Origin: Flavobacteriia bacterium
GTDB taxonomy: Bacteria > Bacteroidota > Bacteroidia > Flavobacteriales_D > Crocinitomicaceae
Reading direction: 5' to 3'
DNA: 52,706 nt
Assembly (NCBI GenBank): GCA_947464135.1
Contig: CANHVK010000009.1
Span: forward strand, 1-52,706
The stretch's first letter is position 1. Each line of letters opens with the position of its first letter. Below the pieces are notes generated by a model. That model was not told where the DNA came from. It searched no databases and saw nothing but the letters and a program-made list of their open reading frames with translations. This document shows positions 28,659-35,852 of this stretch, in pieces. The position numbers and the translations under genes were made by a program.

Positions 28659-28710
28659 ATACAAATAAAAAAAGGGAAAGATTTAAATCTTTCCCTTTTT
28701 TTATTTGTAT
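28659..28710. terminator. Perfect 52-bp palindrome, bidirectional terminator (glmS / phaC)
   Basis: Every base from 28659 to 28684 pairs with 28710 down to 28685, with no spacer at the centre (ATTTAAAT). The core AAAGGGAAAGATTT/AAATCTTTCCCTTT is flanked by A7 on the left and T7 on the right, so it acts as an intrinsic terminator on both strands. It separates convergent glmS and phaC. Confidence 0.95.
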
Positions 28711-28720
28711 TAATTGTTAA

Positions 28721-29776
28721 TTAATCTCTCTCTTTGAGCCATTTAGTTACAGCTGGCGTTAATTCTTTTTGAGATTTTCCACCAACAAATACTCCAATAT
28801 GTCCACCTTCAAATTTATAGATTGTTTTATCTTTTGATCCGACATGCTCATTTAATGGAATTGTAGCGGAAGGGGGTACTAAATGATCATAGGTTGCATA
28901 TATATTTAATAAAGGCATAGTTAGATTTTTTAAATCAACTTTATGATCACCTATTACTAATTCTCCCTTGATTAATTTATTTCCTTGATATAAATCTTCC
29001 ATAAATTGTAAGAAACATTCTCCTGCTTGATCGGGACTTTCATTAATCCATCTCTCCATTCTTAAAAAGTTCAATAGTTTCGTTTTTTCATCCATTGAAT
29101 TAATAAGTCCTGTTGATTTATGAATTTTCATCATTGGTTTAAGCATTTCAAAACCATCATTAAGAAATGAACCAGGTACTAATCCATCAAAACCTTCAAC
29201 TAATTTCTTGAAGTCCATGTCTTTGCTCCATCTAAATAATAATCCATCATTAACAGAAAAATCAATAGGAGTAACATGTGTTACAAGGTTTTTAACTTTT
29301 TCAGGGTGTAATGCAGAATAAATCACACTAAATGTTCCACCTTGACATATACTAAGTATATTAATTTTGTCAACTTTATTTTCTTTTCTAATAAAATCAA
29401 CACATCTATCAATATAACCATTAATATAGTCATCCATACTTAAGTATTTATCCATTTTAGTTGGATACCCCCAATCAATTAAATAAACATCAAGTCCTGA
29501 GTCAATTAAGTTTTTAATGTAACTTCTGTCAGGCTGTAAATCTAACATTTGATACGTGTTTACCAATGCATAAACAATTAAAACCGGAGTTTTGTATGTA
29601 GGTTTATCTGAACGATTATATTTAAATAATCTTAATTTATCTTCTTTGTATACTTCTGTTTTAGGAGTTGTTGCGATATCAACTTCAACGATATCTTGTA
29701 GAAGCTCCATTCCTTTTAAGAATTTGGAAGTGTTTTCTGAAAAATCTTTTAGCATTGAAATGTGTAGGTCTTGCAT
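28721..29776 (-). CDS. phaC: Class III polyhydroxyalkanoate synthase, catalytic subunit
   Basis: Polymerises 3-hydroxyacyl-CoA into polyhydroxyalkanoate, here probably PHB. The 351-residue length is that of class III PhaC, much shorter than class I/II. The lipase-like box reads SICQGGT with catalytic Cys144; Asp297 (ATYDHLVPP) and His326 (EGGHIGVF) complete the triad, at the same mutual spacing as Cys149/Asp302/His331 of Allochromatium PhaC. Tryptophan-containing IDWGYP near residue 100 is also typical. phaE lies upstream in the same direction, but a terminator-like hairpin sits between them. Class III PHA synthases are uncommon in Flavobacteriales as far as I know. Confidence 0.93.
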   Translation of the reverse strand: MQDLHISMLKDFSENTSKFLKGMELLQDIVEVDIATTPKTEVYKEDKLRLFKYNRSDKPTYKTPVLIVYALVNTYQMLDLQPDRSYIKNLIDSGLDVYLIDWGYPTKMDKYLSMDDYINGYIDRCVDFIRKENKVDKINILSICQGGTFSVIYSALHPEKVKNLVTHVTPIDFSVNDGLLFRWSKDMDFKKLVEGFDGLVPGSFLNDGFEMLKPMMKIHKSTGLINSMDEKTKLLNFLRMERWINESPDQAGECFLQFMEDLYQGNKLIKGELVIGDHKVDLKNLTMPLLNIYATYDHLVPPSATIPLNEHVGSKDKTIYKFEGGHIGVFVGGKSQKELTPAVTKWLKERD

Positions 29777-29795
29777 TTTAATTCTATTTTACAAA

Positions 29796-29825
29796 AAAAG
29801 GGAAATAGATAACTATTTCCCTTTT
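29796..29825 (-). terminator. Intrinsic terminator/attenuator between phaE and phaC
   Basis: A perfect 13-bp stem (29813-29825 with 29796-29808) with a 4-base loop is followed on the minus strand by a run of T (TTTTTTTG, including the stem end). It lies 16 bases after the phaE stop and 19 before the phaC start, so some phaE transcripts should end here. Confidence 0.75.
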
Positions 29826-29841
29826 ATGAATTTTTAATTAA

Positions 29842-31182
29842 TTAAACTGTAGTTGTTTTTCTAGCAGTTGTTTTTGTAGTTTCAGTAGTGTTTAATCTTG
29901 ACTCTAAAGTCTTAATTGTCTTTTTTAAGTCGTGAATTGTTTTGTAAAGTTCACTCATTTCTGATTTAACAACTAAAGGAAAAGATTCAACTCTATTTTC
30001 AAATTGTTTTTCTAAGTTCTTTTTAATTTCCATTGAGATAGTTGTTAACTCTCCCTTTAATTTTGAAAATTCGTCAGTAGAAAATAATTGAGTGTAGTGT
30101 TTTTCATTTATGTTTACCCAATCATTAAAGAAAGGTTGGAAAGAAGAAGTCATAGTAGCATCTTTCATTTTTTCAGTCATGTGAGAAAACATTTCGTTTG
30201 AAACTTTCTGTCCTGTTGTATAAAGGTGATTTTGTAATAAATTCAACTTAGTTTGGTAAGTAGCAACTTTATCAAAATTAGCCATTGCCAATTCAATATT
30301 CTCTTTTTCTTTCGAAGGAGTTACTAATTTCATTAAAGGAGCAAAAGTATCAGTTAAAGAAGTGTTTACACCTTTAAACGTTTCTGTGAATTTTACAAAA
30401 TCTCCAGAAATTAAATGAGGGAATTTATCAGTAAATAATTTCCAGTATTCTTGAAAGTCTTTATTTACAGTATTATTGTTAGCAAAGAAATCCTTAACCA
30501 TTTTCACATTGTTTTCTAACATTGTATTTAGGTTAGAAGTAGGAAAGAAATTACCAAATAATTCTTCTGTTACTTTTTTATAATTTGTTGGATCAAATAA
30601 GTTTTTGAATCCATCAATAGTGAAATCTTTATTTTGAAAAGCTTGAAAGAATGGCTTATAAAACTCTTGTAATTTGAAATATAATGCATTTGTATTCATT
30701 GCATTTTGAAATAATTCTTTGTGCATTGTTCCAGGCATCATAGTATTTAATGAATGCATAGTAGAATTTAAAGTTTTATTCCAAGAATCAAATAAAGTGT
30801 TCCAAGTTGAATTTAAATCTAAAAAGTTTTGGTTTGTTTCATTTGTTGATTTACCAAAACTATTTAAAGAATTATACATTCCTAAGTTGAAGTCTGTAGC
30901 TTTTTTCAAAGCATCAACTTGAGTATTATACATATTTTTAAAGAACTCTTCAGTTTTACCAAAAGTTTCGTTTAGTTTATTCTCAGGTTTATGTTCAGTA
31001 GAAATGTTATTAAACATTGACATTTGGTTTTCCCACCAATTTTTATAAACCTCAGTAGATTTTTCCATTGGATTATCTGATTTCATAGCTTCTTGAAACT
31101 TATTTGCTGTTTCAACAAATGTGTTCATCGCTTTTTGTTGAGTTTCCATTACTGTTTCAAATAATTCTTTTGTATTATTCAT
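29842..31182 (-). CDS. phaE: PhaE-like subunit of class III PHA synthase, phasin-like and long
   Basis: A 446-residue, mostly helical protein rich in Asn, Phe, Lys and Thr. It is assigned as PhaE by position beside class III phaC and by its C-terminal coiled coil (MSELYKTIHDLKKTIKTLESRL), which matches the typical PhaE end. The N-terminal 60 residues (ETQQKAMNTFVETANKF) look phasin-like, and several such blocks recur further on. It is longer than usual for PhaE, which suggests combined synthase-activating and granule-coating roles. The low-complexity tail ends TTARKTTTV. A consensus promoter lies upstream at 31215-31245. The family assignment is good in context and weaker by sequence alone. 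Confidence 0.8.
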   Translation of the reverse strand: MNNTKELFETVMETQQKAMNTFVETANKFQEAMKSDNPMEKSTEVYKNWWENQMSMFNNISTEHKPENKLNETFGKTEEFFKNMYNTQVDALKKATDFNLGMYNSLNSFGKSTNETNQNFLDLNSTWNTLFDSWNKTLNSTMHSLNTMMPGTMHKELFQNAMNTNALYFKLQEFYKPFFQAFQNKDFTIDGFKNLFDPTNYKKVTEELFGNFFPTSNLNTMLENNVKMVKDFFANNNTVNKDFQEYWKLFTDKFPHLISGDFVKFTETFKGVNTSLTDTFAPLMKLVTPSKEKENIELAMANFDKVATYQTKLNLLQNHLYTTGQKVSNEMFSHMTEKMKDATMTSSFQPFFNDWVNINEKHYTQLFSTDEFSKLKGELTTISMEIKKNLEKQFENRVESFPLVVKSEMSELYKTIHDLKKTIKTLESRLNTTETTKTTARKTTTV

Positions 31183-31214
31183 TATCTATAATTTTAAAAA
31201 TTAAGGTTACGGTG

Positions 31215-31245
31215 CAAATTTCGAGCAATTATTTATTTAATCAAA
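31215..31245 (-). promoter_or_regulatory. Promoter of phaE
   Basis: On the minus strand there is TTTG (31242-31245), a 19-base spacer and GAAATTTG (31215-31222), one base off the TAnnTTTG consensus. The start codon of phaE is about 33 bases downstream. Confidence 0.6.
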
Positions 31246-31298
31246 ATTTTTTTTCAATTTATCAAGTATTTTTTTAACAATTTGAATTTAGTTTTCAA

Positions 31299-32039
31299 CT
31301 ACATGTACAAACCTCCGTTAATATTTAGACATTGCCCTGTCATGTAATCTGAATTTACAAGAAAAAGTACTCCTTTAGCAATTTCATTTGGATCGCCTAA
31401 TTTATTCATTGGAATTTTAGAAACAATATTTTTAAGTACATCTTCAGGCATTGCTGCTACCATTTCAGTTCCTATGAATCCAGGGCAAATGTTGTTGACG
31501 GTTATCCCATATTTTGCCGTTTCTAGTGCTAAAGATTTACTGAAACCTATTAATCCAGCTTTAGCAGCTGCATAGTTTGTTTGCCCAAATCCACCTGATT
31601 GTCCAATTACGGAACTAATATTTATAATTCTTCCGAATTTGTTTTCAATCATATCAGGCACAACTAATGAACACATGTTAAATGCACTTGATAAATTCGT
31701 ATTTATAACTTCTTGCCATTCAGATAAACTCATTTTTCTAAATGATCGGTCTCTTGTTATACCTGCGTTGTTTATTAGAATATCAATTTTTCCAAGTTTT
31801 TCTTTTACAGCACTAATCATTTTAGAACAGTCCTCGCTTTCAGCGATATTTCCTTGAATTTTGATTGCAGAACCTCCAGCTTCAATGATTTGATTTACAA
31901 TATTGTCAGCGTGTGATTCGTTATGATTGTAATTTACTACTACAAAATAACCTTCCGCACCTAATGCTAGTGAAATTGCTGCACCTATTCCTCGGGAACC
32001 TCCTGTTACCAAGGCTATTTTTTTATTTTCGGTTATCAT
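31299..32039 (-). CDS. phaB: Acetoacetyl-CoA reductase (PhaB/FabG-type SDR)
   Basis: An NAD(P)H-dependent short-chain dehydrogenase of 246 residues, expected to reduce acetoacetyl-CoA to (R)-3-hydroxybutyryl-CoA for PHB synthesis. Cofactor motif is TGGSRGIG, then NNAGITRD, catalytic Ser in NISSVIGQSGG, and the YxxxK motif in QTNYAAAKAG. The FGQTNYAAAKAG and GITRDRSFRKM segments resemble PhaB more than housekeeping FabG, though the two cannot be fully separated by eye. It lies 116 bases upstream of phaE in the same direction, and divergent from phaJ. Confidence 0.87.
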   Translation of the reverse strand: MITENKKIALVTGGSRGIGAAISLALGAEGYFVVVNYNHNESHADNIVNQIIEAGGSAIKIQGNIAESEDCSKMISAVKEKLGKIDILINNAGITRDRSFRKMSLSEWQEVINTNLSSAFNMCSLVVPDMIENKFGRIINISSVIGQSGGFGQTNYAAAKAGLIGFSKSLALETAKYGITVNNICPGFIGTEMVAAMPEDVLKNIVSKIPMNKLGDPNEIAKGVLFLVNSDYMTGQCLNINGGLYM

Positions 32040-32154
32040 AGATTATATTTTTAATAGAGTGTTTATACTTTTTCAAAAGATAGAAATTTTTTTTCAATTT
32101 TTAGGAGTTTTAAATGTTGAAATTAATTTGTAAATTGGACTTTCTAATTTTTTT

Positions 32155-32559
32155 ATGATGATTAATATTGGTGATAAATTTGAGCATAATTTTTCTTACA
32201 GTCAAGAAGATGTAGTTTTATTTTCTAAAGTTACAGGTGATAATAATCCTGTTCATTTAGATGATGAATATGCTTCAAAGACAATTTTTAAAAGACCTAT
32301 CATACACGGAATGTTAGGAGCTTCTGTTTTTTCTAAAGTTTTTGGAACGATGTTTCCTGGAGAAGGAACAATTTATTTGACCCAAAACATTCAGTTTTTA
32401 AAGCCAATGTTAGTTGATACAAATTACATTGCTTTTTTTGAAGTTATAGAAATAGATCGTGAAAAACACAGAGCAACTGTAAGTACATATGTTTTGAATG
32501 AAGACGGTAAAAAGGTGATTGATGGTAACGCTATATTAATGCATACTGAAAAGTTTTAA
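32155..32559 (+). CDS. phaJ: (R)-specific enoyl-CoA hydratase (MaoC-like)
   Basis: Hydrates enoyl-CoA to (R)-3-hydroxyacyl-CoA, linking beta-oxidation to PHA synthesis. The 134-residue single hot-dog domain has the hydratase-2 motif VTGDNNPVHLDDEYA, with Asp29 and His34 as catalytic pair, closely matching Aeromonas PhaJ. PIIHGMLGASVFSKVFG follows. Two ATGs (32155 and 32158) are equally possible. It is the first of a tight plus-strand set; the next gene begins within four bases. It is divergent from phaB. Confidence 0.92.
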   Translation: MMINIGDKFEHNFSYSQEDVVLFSKVTGDNNPVHLDDEYASKTIFKRPIIHGMLGASVFSKVFGTMFPGEGTIYLTQNIQFLKPMLVDTNYIAFFEVIEIDREKHRATVSTYVLNEDGKKVIDGNAILMHTEKF

Positions 32560-32562
32560 TTG

Positions 32563-33354
32563 ATGTTCGTTTTAACAAGTGATAATAAAAAAATATATAC
32601 TGAGTATCACATCAAAGATGCTAGTTTTGAAACAATAGTTTTATTAAACGGTTTGTCACAAACAACCGCTTCATGGGGTTTTGTAGTTCCACATCTAAAA
32701 AATAAGTATAATATTTTGCTTGTTGATTTTATTTTTCAGGGTAATTCTGATAAAGAAGGAAACTGGCGTGATTTTGATGAACATGCAAAAGATGTTATCT
32801 CAGTTTTAGATTTTTATTCCGTTTCTAAAGGAATTTTAATTGGACTCTCTTATGGTAGTATTGTCGCTCAACATGCTGCAGTTCTTTTTCCTAATAGAAT
32901 TTCAAAATTAGTTTTACTATCTACCTTTGCTAATAAAACTCCTTATTATGAAGCTATTGAGCTTTCTTGGAAAAGAGCATTGGAAATGGGAGGGTATGGA
33001 TTGATGTTGGATGTAATGTTGCCATACGTTTTAAGTGATTCATATTTTAGTCACCCTATAATTCCGATAGAATTACTAAAATCTATGAGAAAGGATGTTG
33101 TAGAAGCTAAGTCATTAGAAAAATTAATGACGGCGACTTTAAATATGAAAGATTACAGAAATGAATTAAAAAACGTTTTATGTCCAACATGTGTTATTCA
33201 TGGAGGAAAAGACCTACTTTTTCCAGTAGATCTTGGGAAATCAGTTTCGGATCATATTAAAGATTCTGAATTCCATGTATTGCCAAATGCAGGTCATACC
33301 TTGAATTTGGAAGAGGTTCCAAGTGTAATAAAATTAATAGAAGAGTTTATTTAG
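32563..33354 (+). CDS. Alpha/beta hydrolase within the PHB cluster
   Basis: A 263-residue alpha/beta-hydrolase. The nucleophile elbow is GLSYGS (Ser96); the acid is in HGGKDLLFP and the catalytic His in NAGHTLNLEE near the end. An oxyanion-hole segment LLNGLSQTTASWG lies near residue 30. It starts at the ATG at 32563, directly after the phaJ stop, and is followed by 3-hydroxybutyrate dehydrogenase after six bases. In this position a 3-hydroxybutyrate oligomer hydrolase, thioesterase or depolymerase is plausible, but the sequence does not fix the substrate. Confidence 0.85.
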   Translation: MFVLTSDNKKIYTEYHIKDASFETIVLLNGLSQTTASWGFVVPHLKNKYNILLVDFIFQGNSDKEGNWRDFDEHAKDVISVLDFYSVSKGILIGLSYGSIVAQHAAVLFPNRISKLVLLSTFANKTPYYEAIELSWKRALEMGGYGLMLDVMLPYVLSDSYFSHPIIPIELLKSMRKDVVEAKSLEKLMTATLNMKDYRNELKNVLCPTCVIHGGKDLLFPVDLGKSVSDHIKDSEFHVLPNAGHTLNLEEVPSVIKLIEEFI

Positions 33355-33360
33355 AATTAT

Positions 33361-34128
33361 ATGAAAACAGTTTTAATAACAGGAAGTACTAGTGGTATAG
33401 GACTTGGAATAGCAAAAGAATTTGCAAAAGAAGGGTATAATATTGCATTTAATGGTTTAGAAGTAAATGGAGCTGAGATTGCAGCACAAATTGGTACAGA
33501 ATATAGTGTTAAAACAGCATTTTACGGAGCAGATTTGAGAAATCCATCTTCTATTAACGAAATGATAACAAATGCTATAGAACATTTTGGAAAGATAGAT
33601 GTTTTAATTAATAATGCAGGAATACAATATGTTTCATCAATAGAGGATTTTCCTGTAGATAAATGGAATGCAATTATAGATGTAAATTTAAATGCAGTTT
33701 TTCATTTATCAAAAGCTGTTTGGAAATCAATGAAAACAAATAAGTTTGGGCGAATAATAAATATTGCATCAGCACATGGTTTAGTAGCTTCTGAATTCAA
33801 AGTTGCATATGTTTCTGCAAAACATGCAGTTGTAGGTATGACAAAAGTATTAGGATTGGAAGGAGCACCTGATGGAATAACAGTAAATGCAATATGTCCT
33901 GGATACGTTAAAACACCTTTAGTTGAGAAACAAATTGCTGATCAGGCTATTGCCCATGGCATTTCAGAAGAAGAGGTGATTTCTAAAATTATGTTACAAA
34001 AACATGCTATTAAAGATTTTGTCACACCTGAAACTTTAGGTAAGTTAGCATTGTTTTTGGCTTCAGATGAAGCTAGTACAATGACTGGTACAGCAATACC
34101 GGTAGATGGAGGGTGGACAGCACAATAA
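33361..34128 (+). CDS. bdhA: 3-hydroxybutyrate dehydrogenase
   Basis: An NAD-dependent short-chain dehydrogenase of 255 residues that oxidises (R)-3-hydroxybutyrate, the PHB monomer, to acetoacetate. It has TGSTSGIGLGIA at the cofactor site, NNAGIQYVSSIEDFP (typical of this enzyme), IASAHGLVAS with catalytic Ser, and YVSAKHAV with the YxxxK pair. VNAICPGYVKTPLVEKQI and the HAIKDFVTPE stretch are also characteristic of 3-hydroxybutyrate dehydrogenases. It is followed nine bases later by the patatin gene. The position supports a role in PHB breakdown. Confidence 0.92.
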   Translation: MKTVLITGSTSGIGLGIAKEFAKEGYNIAFNGLEVNGAEIAAQIGTEYSVKTAFYGADLRNPSSINEMITNAIEHFGKIDVLINNAGIQYVSSIEDFPVDKWNAIIDVNLNAVFHLSKAVWKSMKTNKFGRIINIASAHGLVASEFKVAYVSAKHAVVGMTKVLGLEGAPDGITVNAICPGYVKTPLVEKQIADQAIAHGISEEEVISKIMLQKHAIKDFVTPETLGKLALFLASDEASTMTGTAIPVDGGWTAQ

Positions 34129-34137
34129 AATTATAAA

Positions 34138-35172
34138 ATGAAGTTAAAAACAAAACACGTTGGACTTGCTTTGCAGGGGGGGGGAGCGCATGGAGCTTTC
34201 ACTTGGGGAGTGTTAGATCGTTTATTAGAAATAGATGAATTAATTGCTGATGGAATTGTCGGTACTAGTGCAGGTGCACTAAATGCTGTTGTTACAGCCT
34301 ATGGATTACATATAGGGGGAAAAGCAAAGGCGAAAGAGCTACTAGATAAGCTTTGGAAAGAAATAGCATTATCAGGAAACATTTTATTTAAACCATCAAT
34401 GGTGGATGCAATGTTTTCAAATGGTGACTTGTATAATACACCAGGATATGTCATGTTTAATGCCATGTCTCAATTTTTTTCTCCTTATCAGTTAAATCCT
34501 GCAAATATTAATCCTTTAAGACAAATATTAACTTCTATTGTAGATTTCGAAGAATTAAGAAGATACAATAAAAAAAAGTTATTTATTTGTGCAACGAACG
34601 TTAAAACTAATAGGGCTAAAGTTTTTGATAATGAAGAAATTTCAGTGGATGCCGTTTTAGCATCTACGTGTTTACCTTATTTGTTTCAAGCTGTAGAAAT
34701 TGATGGTGAGTTTTATTGGGATGGTGGTTATATGGGTAATCCGCCACTTTTTCCAATCATAGAGAATACAGATATTAGCGATTTATTATTAGTTAAGATT
34801 AATTCAATTAATATTAAAGACTTACCCACAAGCGCTAGAGATATAGAGGATCGTATAACTGAAATTTGTTTTAATTCAAGTTTAATCAATGAGATGAAGT
34901 TAATTCATTACAGAAATGAATTGGTTAGAAGAGGAATTTCGTTAGAAGAAGACAGAAAACCAAGGGAAATTTTTGTTCATTCAATTTCAGCACATGAAGC
35001 AATTGGTCATTTAAAATATTCAAGTAAAATGAATACTTCTTGGGAGTTTTTATTAGACTTAAAGCAAAAAGGAAGAGAATATGCTGAAAAATGGATTTTA
35101 AATGAGTATGATCAAGTAGGTATTAAATCGTCTTTTGATGTAGAAAAACATTTCTTTAACAAGTTTAAATGA
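34138..35172 (+). CDS. Patatin-like hydrolase, candidate PHB depolymerase
   Basis: A 344-residue patatin-family hydrolase. The glycine-rich oxyanion loop is ALQGGGAHGAF (residues 11-21), the nucleophile GTSAG (Ser44) and the partner Asp in WDGGYMGN (Asp195). There is no signal peptide, so it acts inside the cell. A patatin-like enzyme from Haloferax mediterranei is a PHB depolymerase, and here the gene sits directly after 3-hydroxybutyrate dehydrogenase. A phospholipase role cannot be excluded. A run of nine G (34176-34184) encodes part of the oxyanion loop. It overlaps the DUF2459 gene by four bases. Confidence 0.9.
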   Translation: MKLKTKHVGLALQGGGAHGAFTWGVLDRLLEIDELIADGIVGTSAGALNAVVTAYGLHIGGKAKAKELLDKLWKEIALSGNILFKPSMVDAMFSNGDLYNTPGYVMFNAMSQFFSPYQLNPANINPLRQILTSIVDFEELRRYNKKKLFICATNVKTNRAKVFDNEEISVDAVLASTCLPYLFQAVEIDGEFYWDGGYMGNPPLFPIIENTDISDLLLVKINSINIKDLPTSARDIEDRITEICFNSSLINEMKLIHYRNELVRRGISLEEDRKPREIFVHSISAHEAIGHLKYSSKMNTSWEFLLDLKQKGREYAEKWILNEYDQVGIKSSFDVEKHFFNKFK

Positions 35173-35852
35173 AACGAGTATTAAAAATTTCAATTTGGAG
35201 TATCGTGTCATTGATACTTTTTATAGGAGTTTATTTTTTAATTGCTCTTCTTTTAGGAAACATACAAAATAGTCGGTACAATTTTAAGAAAACAAAAAAA
35301 TACCAAGTATTGATTTTATCTAATGGTGTTCATACAGATCTTGTTCTACCTGTTAGAAATGATTTAGTTAATTGGAAATATTATTTCCCAATTTCAAATA
35401 CTAAAACAAAACAAGATCATAATGGATGGATTGCATTTGGATGGGGGGATAAAGGATTTTACTTAAATACTCCTACTTGGGGAGATTTAACTTTCTCGAC
35501 TGCCGTTAAAGCAGTGACAGGACTAAGTTCAACAGCTCTTCATGTTACTTACCGAGATTCAATAAAGATAGATTCATCAAATTGTATTAGTTTGAAACTA
35601 ACAAAAAATGAGTTTAAATCTTTAAGAAATTTTATTTTTGAATCTTTTCAAAAAACTAAAAACAAAAAAGCGATTTATATACCAACCGATGCAGTTTATG
35701 GTGATAACGATGCTTTTTATGAAGCAAATGGTACATATCATTTGTTTAACACATGTAATACCTGGACGAATGATGGATTAAAGAAATGTAATCAGAAATC
35801 ATGTGTTTGGACTCCATTTGAGTCAGGTATATTCAATTTGTATAAAGATTGA
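35169..35852 (+). CDS. DUF2459 (TIGR02117) family protein
   Basis: A 227-residue protein with one N-terminal membrane segment (residues about 8-30) and a soluble, probably periplasmic domain. The DUF2459 hallmarks are ILSNGVHTDLVLPV with a conserved His-Thr-Asp, WIAFGWGDKGFY, NTPTWGDLTFSTA and FNTCNTWTNDGLK. The Cys/His/Asp pattern resembles a hydrolase or peptidase-like fold, but no activity is established. Its start overlaps the patatin stop by four bases, so it is translated with the PHB breakdown genes. Related genes are known beside urease or PHA genes elsewhere. Confidence 0.82.
   Translation: MKRVLKISIWSIVSLILFIGVYFLIALLLGNIQNSRYNFKKTKKYQVLILSNGVHTDLVLPVRNDLVNWKYYFPISNTKTKQDHNGWIAFGWGDKGFYLNTPTWGDLTFSTAVKAVTGLSSTALHVTYRDSIKIDSSNCISLKLTKNEFKSLRNFIFESFQKTKNKKAIYIPTDAVYGDNDAFYEANGTYHLFNTCNTWTNDGLKKCNQKSCVWTPFESGIFNLYKD

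Follow-up and report, generated by a model that had tools for sequence, protein, structure and literature searches.

Does a single divergent locus in a lake bacterium encode a complete intracellular PHB store, and if so, which of its products degrade the polymer? To our knowledge, little has been learned about PHB mobilisation beyond the model Proteobacteria. The locus lies in a window of 52,706 nucleotides, the whole stretch of DNA that was analysed, which is an entire contig from a 2.31-Mb metagenome-assembled genome (84% complete). The initial annotation proposed that one locus runs the storage cycle. The present analysis supports this more strongly than it was claimed, because a patatin-like protein of the cluster is very probably a depolymerase; the thiolase and CoA-transferase steps are encoded elsewhere. 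Judged by its gene content, it is highly probable that the locus specifies the complete store.

All eight open reading frames of the cluster were found at the coordinates first reported, and family assignments with Pfam and TIGR models established that the PHB gene set is real and correctly placed. The minus strand carries phaB-phaE-phaC, with the class III PHB synthase, and the plus strand carries phaJ, abh (an alpha/beta hydrolase gene), bdhA, a patatin gene and a DUF2459 gene. The activities given below are predictions from family models and motifs.

phaC, 28721..29776, minus strand: class III PHA synthase catalytic subunit (TIGR01836, 440 bits; C144, D297 and H326 invariant in 46 sequences)
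phaE-phaC gap, 29777..29841, minus strand: intrinsic-terminator-like hairpin at 29796-29825 with a U tract, from a terminator scan; possible attenuator
phaE, 29842..31182, minus strand: second class III synthase subunit, 446 aa, long and divergent (PF09712, 82 bits; TIGR01834 under cut-off)
phaB, 31299..32039, minus strand: acetoacetyl-CoA reductase (TIGR01829, above cut-off)
divergent intergenic region, 32040..32154, no strand: 115 bp, A+T-rich; presumed, from its position, to hold the promoters of both operons
phaJ-like, 32155..32559, plus strand: (R)-specific enoyl-CoA hydratase with a MaoC domain (PF01575) and the motif D29-x-N-x-x-H34; D29 and H34 invariant
abh, 32563..33354, plus strand: alpha/beta hydrolase with GLSYG (S96), D217 and H245; candidate depolymerase or 3HB-oligomer hydrolase
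bdhA, 33361..34128, plus strand: 3-hydroxybutyrate dehydrogenase (TIGR01963, 343 bits, above cut-off)
patatin, 34138..35172, plus strand: probable PhaZh1-type intracellular PHB depolymerase (PF01734; G14-16, GTS44AG, D195GG)
DUF2459/TIGR02117 protein, 35169..35852, plus strand: 4-bp overlap with the patatin gene; probably co-transcribed as a bystander

Given gaps of only 3, 6 and 9 nt, followed by the 4-nt overlap of the patatin and DUF2459 genes, the plus-strand genes probably form one operon. On the synthase strand, 116 nt separate phaB from phaE and 65 nt separate phaE from phaC. The start of abh is probably the ATG at 32563 rather than the TTG at 32560. Conservation of the intergenic region 32040-32154 is good in the nearest relatives only. 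A scan for sigma-70 promoters yielded no more hits than shuffled sequences did (30 vs 41). Between phaC and glmS the window contains a long convergent terminator hairpin of 20 pairs (28661-28708).

The assignment of the synthase to class III was borne out: PhaC scores 439.8 bits against TIGR01836 (cut-off 365.3), the full Cys-Asp-His triad is present, and phaE is adjacent. PhaE is well above the cut-off of PF09712 (82.1 vs 25.7 bits) and is called divergent because it falls under that of TIGR01834 (51 vs 155 bits). PhaB scores 313 bits against TIGR01829, for which the cut-off is 302. The nucleophile box of PhaC (window positions 29336-29353) reads SICQGG; of 46 related PhaC sequences, 32 have Ser where the first Gly is usual. 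PhaR is no defining part of class III systems. The absence of phaA had been listed as a variant trait, a point that did not survive a search of the genome. Three thiolases exceed the TIGR01930 cut-off, one of which scores best with acetyl-CoA C-acetyltransferase models, while another is of the PcaF type and the third adjoins a FadB-like protein. Since a PhaA-like thiolase is encoded elsewhere, the lack of phaA at this locus reflects nothing more than gene layout. A CoA-transferase subunit is likewise encoded outside the cluster, which offers a route from acetoacetate to acetoacetyl-CoA.

The hairpin between phaE and phaC, which is followed by U residues, keeps its position in all relatives tested from the same family (f1), and hairpins with different stem sequences occupy the same position in families f53 and f39. 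Within the sampled contigs, hairpins are present in 15 of 16 phaE-phaC gaps vs 15 of 87 other co-directional gaps (family-level p = 0.018, in a test chosen post hoc, after the hairpin had been noticed); the exception is the phaE-phaC gap of L086 (family f49). It is plausible that partial termination at this site keeps PhaE in excess of PhaC. The hairpin could also be an ordinary terminator without any stoichiometric role, phaC then having its own promoter, a reading that we regard as quite possible without favouring it. Similar hairpins do occur in about 17% of other co-directional gaps, but only about 20 nt lie between the hairpin and the phaC start, too short for a promoter downstream of the hairpin, and the conserved position in three families despite differing stems also speaks against this reading, with the reservation that the family-level test is post hoc. 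A literature search on phaE-phaC terminators or stoichiometry returned nothing relevant. A hairpin with a U tract was also recorded in the phaE-phaC gaps of L016-L035, L083-L085, L088, L095 and L101, which represent three families.

The gene order recurs on long contigs of the same genus and of a sister genus; glmS and rmlA flank the locus in its own genus only. The cluster is under strong purifying selection, with dN/dS values of 0.02-0.12 where calculable (window vs nearest relative, plus closer pairs; for abh vs L016, synonymous sites are saturated). Recurrence of the order in two genera and these low ratios argue against a chance arrangement. Of the 24 genera of the family, two carry the synthase: the same genus, with 12 genomes out of 13, and a second one, with 10 genomes; in an order-level sample, a strong match was confined to the same genus. 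Class III PhaC above the cut-off occurs in 38 of 395 genomes of the class Bacteroidia. In the PhaC tree the two genera group together, within Bacteroidia sequences of other families. This pattern fits acquisition from another member of the Bacteroidia and subsequent vertical descent, with loss elsewhere as the alternative. The description of the genome as Flavobacteriales-like is plausible, as bins of related contigs are mostly labelled Flavobacteriia (several others bear doubtful NCBI names); within the family, the synthase is restricted to two genera. Much of the cluster was also seen on a 13.5-kb contig (L020/L089) of a genome assigned to another family (G410, f42), with PhaC 82% identical; this may reflect either recent transfer or a binning error.

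The initial annotation regarded a canonical PhaZ as missing. We conclude from motifs and gene context that the patatin is very probably the depolymerase that had seemed to be lacking: it resembles the PhaZh1 type, its gene lies beside bdhA, and all 35 Bacteroidia genomes with an orthologue have PhaC. It contains the GXSXG serine, the Asp and the glycine-rich oxyanion motif of PF01734, and G14-16, S44 and D195 are conserved among the Bacteroidia orthologues compared. The essential residues in the original PhaZh1 paper are reportedly Gly16, Ser47 and Asp195. PhaZh1 (HFX_6464) of Haloferax mediterranei is a patatin-like, granule-associated PHA depolymerase whose gene adjoins bdhA (PMC7137286; PMC11205408).

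Patatin orthologues (E <= 1e-40) were identified in 35 of the 395 Bacteroidia genomes; all 35 have PhaC, class III or class I-like, and none of the 324 PhaC-negative genomes has the patatin (p = 1.4e-30). Relatives are not independent in these counts, and the family-level value (p = 0.001) comes from an 80-genome subset partly picked by patatin presence. Half of the PhaC-positive Bacteroidia (36/71) are without the patatin. Because the patatin gene is mostly not beside phaC, the association is not explained by linkage. Plasmid-borne orthologues with approximately 45-48% identity occur in rhizobia and Azospirillum. The bdhA-patatin pair is adjacent in both Rhizobium plasmid records examined; in two Azospirillum records the patatin gene sits with alr and not beside bdhA. 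In families f19 and f57, a short conserved protein of about 250 aa is encoded directly next to the patatin-bdhA pair (L178:14364-15116 and L180:6801-7541); its likeness to acetoacetate decarboxylase was judged by eye only.

The second hydrolase, abh, matches general alpha/beta-hydrolase models only. Its catalytic set S96, D217 and H245 is invariant in the orthologues compared, and its predicted structure (pLDDT 93.6) has the standard alpha/beta hydrolase fold. Orthologues (E <= 1e-25) are present in 34 of 52 PhaC-positive vs 0 of 28 PhaC-negative genomes (family-level p = 4e-4), and bdhA, whose product scores 343.4 bits against TIGR01963 (cut-off 307.05), in 38 of 52 vs 0 of 28 (family-level p = 1e-5). 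As these 80 genomes were partly chosen by patatin presence, the fair part of the comparison is the zero count in the 28 synthase-free genomes together with the family-level tests. The abh gene lies beside bdhA, phaB, phaC or patatin in six families (f1, f18, f19, f32, f49 and f57). It accompanies patatin and bdhA in f49 and f57; f32 and f18 have bdhA-abh-phaB layouts, running on into phaC in f32; in f19 the order is abh-phaB-phaC, and patatin and bdhA lie close by. The f53 copies of abh (L184, L185) show no such linkage, and a search of plasmid records for abh gave no match at 1e-20. Its co-occurrence with PhaC and its proximity to PHA genes in these six families make abh a candidate for a second depolymerase or for an oligomer hydrolase. 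There is good support for a PHA-linked role, with polymer or oligomers as candidate substrates, and abh and patatin, which both track the PHA synthase across many Bacteroidota, are the likely polymer-degrading enzymes.

Which of the two would be the main depolymerase is a separate question. In Haloferax, PHA mobilisation in vivo was not significantly affected when phaZh1 was deleted (PMC4823750), so another enzyme than the patatin could have the main part. Abh, as an enzyme like the PhaZ of Bacillus thuringiensis, might then attack the polymer while the patatin cuts granule lipid or another ester. Besides the tolerated loss in Haloferax, three PhaC-positive genomes (G311, G404 and G667) have abh without patatin, next to bdhA and/or phaB, and in a profile search with abh only one solved structure ranks above the PHB depolymerase of B. 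thuringiensis (1.4e-26). In structural alignment of the abh model, however, an enol-lactonase and general esterases rank first (Z 36 for 2xua), and the score against i_nPHAscl (NF050089) is far below the cut-off (71.8 vs 300 bits). PhaZ is not among the 50 structural matches listed for abh, which excludes nothing. The biochemical precedent is on the side of the patatin. We thus consider it rather unlikely that abh is the main depolymerase and prefer the patatin in this role, possibly assisted by abh.

PhaJ had been interpreted as a second entry route by which fatty acids feed the polymer. The hydratase motif in its MaoC domain fits such a route, in which (R)-3-hydroxyacyl-CoA from beta-oxidation would enter the polymer, and the genome encodes a FadB-like protein with an adjoining FadA-like thiolase. 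Yet the mobilisation strand begins with phaJ, and PhaJ of Haloferax mediterranei works in PHA mobilisation (PMC4823750). The feed from fatty acids is therefore only one option, unproven, and in our view a doubtful one. The position of phaJ is not decisive, as in one f53 genome (L085) it adjoins phaB instead.

The MaoC, patatin and DUF2459 domains each exceed their Pfam cut-offs. DUF2459 is a family with a papain-like fold (PMC10318531). It had been included in the PHB cluster, but we consider it a bystander because it does not co-occur with PhaC, which is present in 15 of 69 DUF2459-positive vs 56 of 326 DUF2459-negative genomes (Fisher p = 0.39), and it is replaced or missing in relatives, being absent from this place in L017 and L031. 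Its usual place in L017 (1715-4357) is occupied by an 880-aa open reading frame that appears RND/MMPL exporter-like, by eye only.

Taken together, the minus strand would conduct synthesis, with acetoacetyl-CoA from the thiolase encoded elsewhere being reduced by PhaB and the product polymerised by PhaE-PhaC; the hairpin may reduce phaC expression relative to phaE. The plus strand would conduct mobilisation. The PhaZh1-type patatin would cut native granules to 3-hydroxybutyrate, abh may assist by attacking polymer or oligomers, BdhA would oxidise 3-hydroxybutyrate to acetoacetate, and the CoA-transferase would reactivate the latter. PhaJ may join beta-oxidation to the pool of 3-hydroxyacyl-CoA, with flow possible both ways. 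More tentatively, abh may found a hitherto unnamed Bacteroidota family of PHA-granule hydrolases (depolymerases or oligomer hydrolases) working with patatin and BdhA, and at the same time Bacteroidia class III loci may set the PhaE:PhaC ratio by a conserved intercistronic attenuator; we put this combined proposal forward as speculative. The new evidence is the genome-wide tie of patatin and abh to the PHA synthase in Bacteroidia. A hydrolase that tracks the synthase across this class is a concrete candidate for the missing steps and could serve as a marker of the storage trait in metagenomes. The distribution also indicates which freshwater lineages of Bacteroidota are probably able to store carbon.

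Three known systems invite comparison. With the intracellular PhaZ of Bacillus thuringiensis (8ynv), abh shares the alpha/beta-hydrolase fold and a serine nucleophile motif, but in structure it is nearer to many esterases and lactonases, and it lies far under the i_nPHAscl cut-off. Haloferax mediterranei, which has PhaEC and PhaJ as well, carries the phaZh1-bdhA module, where, as in this cluster, a patatin-like hydrolase is encoded beside a 3-hydroxybutyrate dehydrogenase; the likeness is one of motifs and gene context, and here the synthase is in the same locus, together with an additional alpha/beta hydrolase. Like other class III PHA synthases (TIGR01836/PF09712), the locus combines a PhaC above the curated cut-off, with its Cys-Asp-His triad, and an adjacent PhaE. 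It differs in the length of PhaE (446 aa) and its score below TIGR01834, in the terminator-like hairpin that separates phaE from phaC, and in the box SICQGG in place of the usual GxCxGG. In its layout the locus is best described as a variation on the known class III systems, and sequence gives its predicted storage cycle good support.
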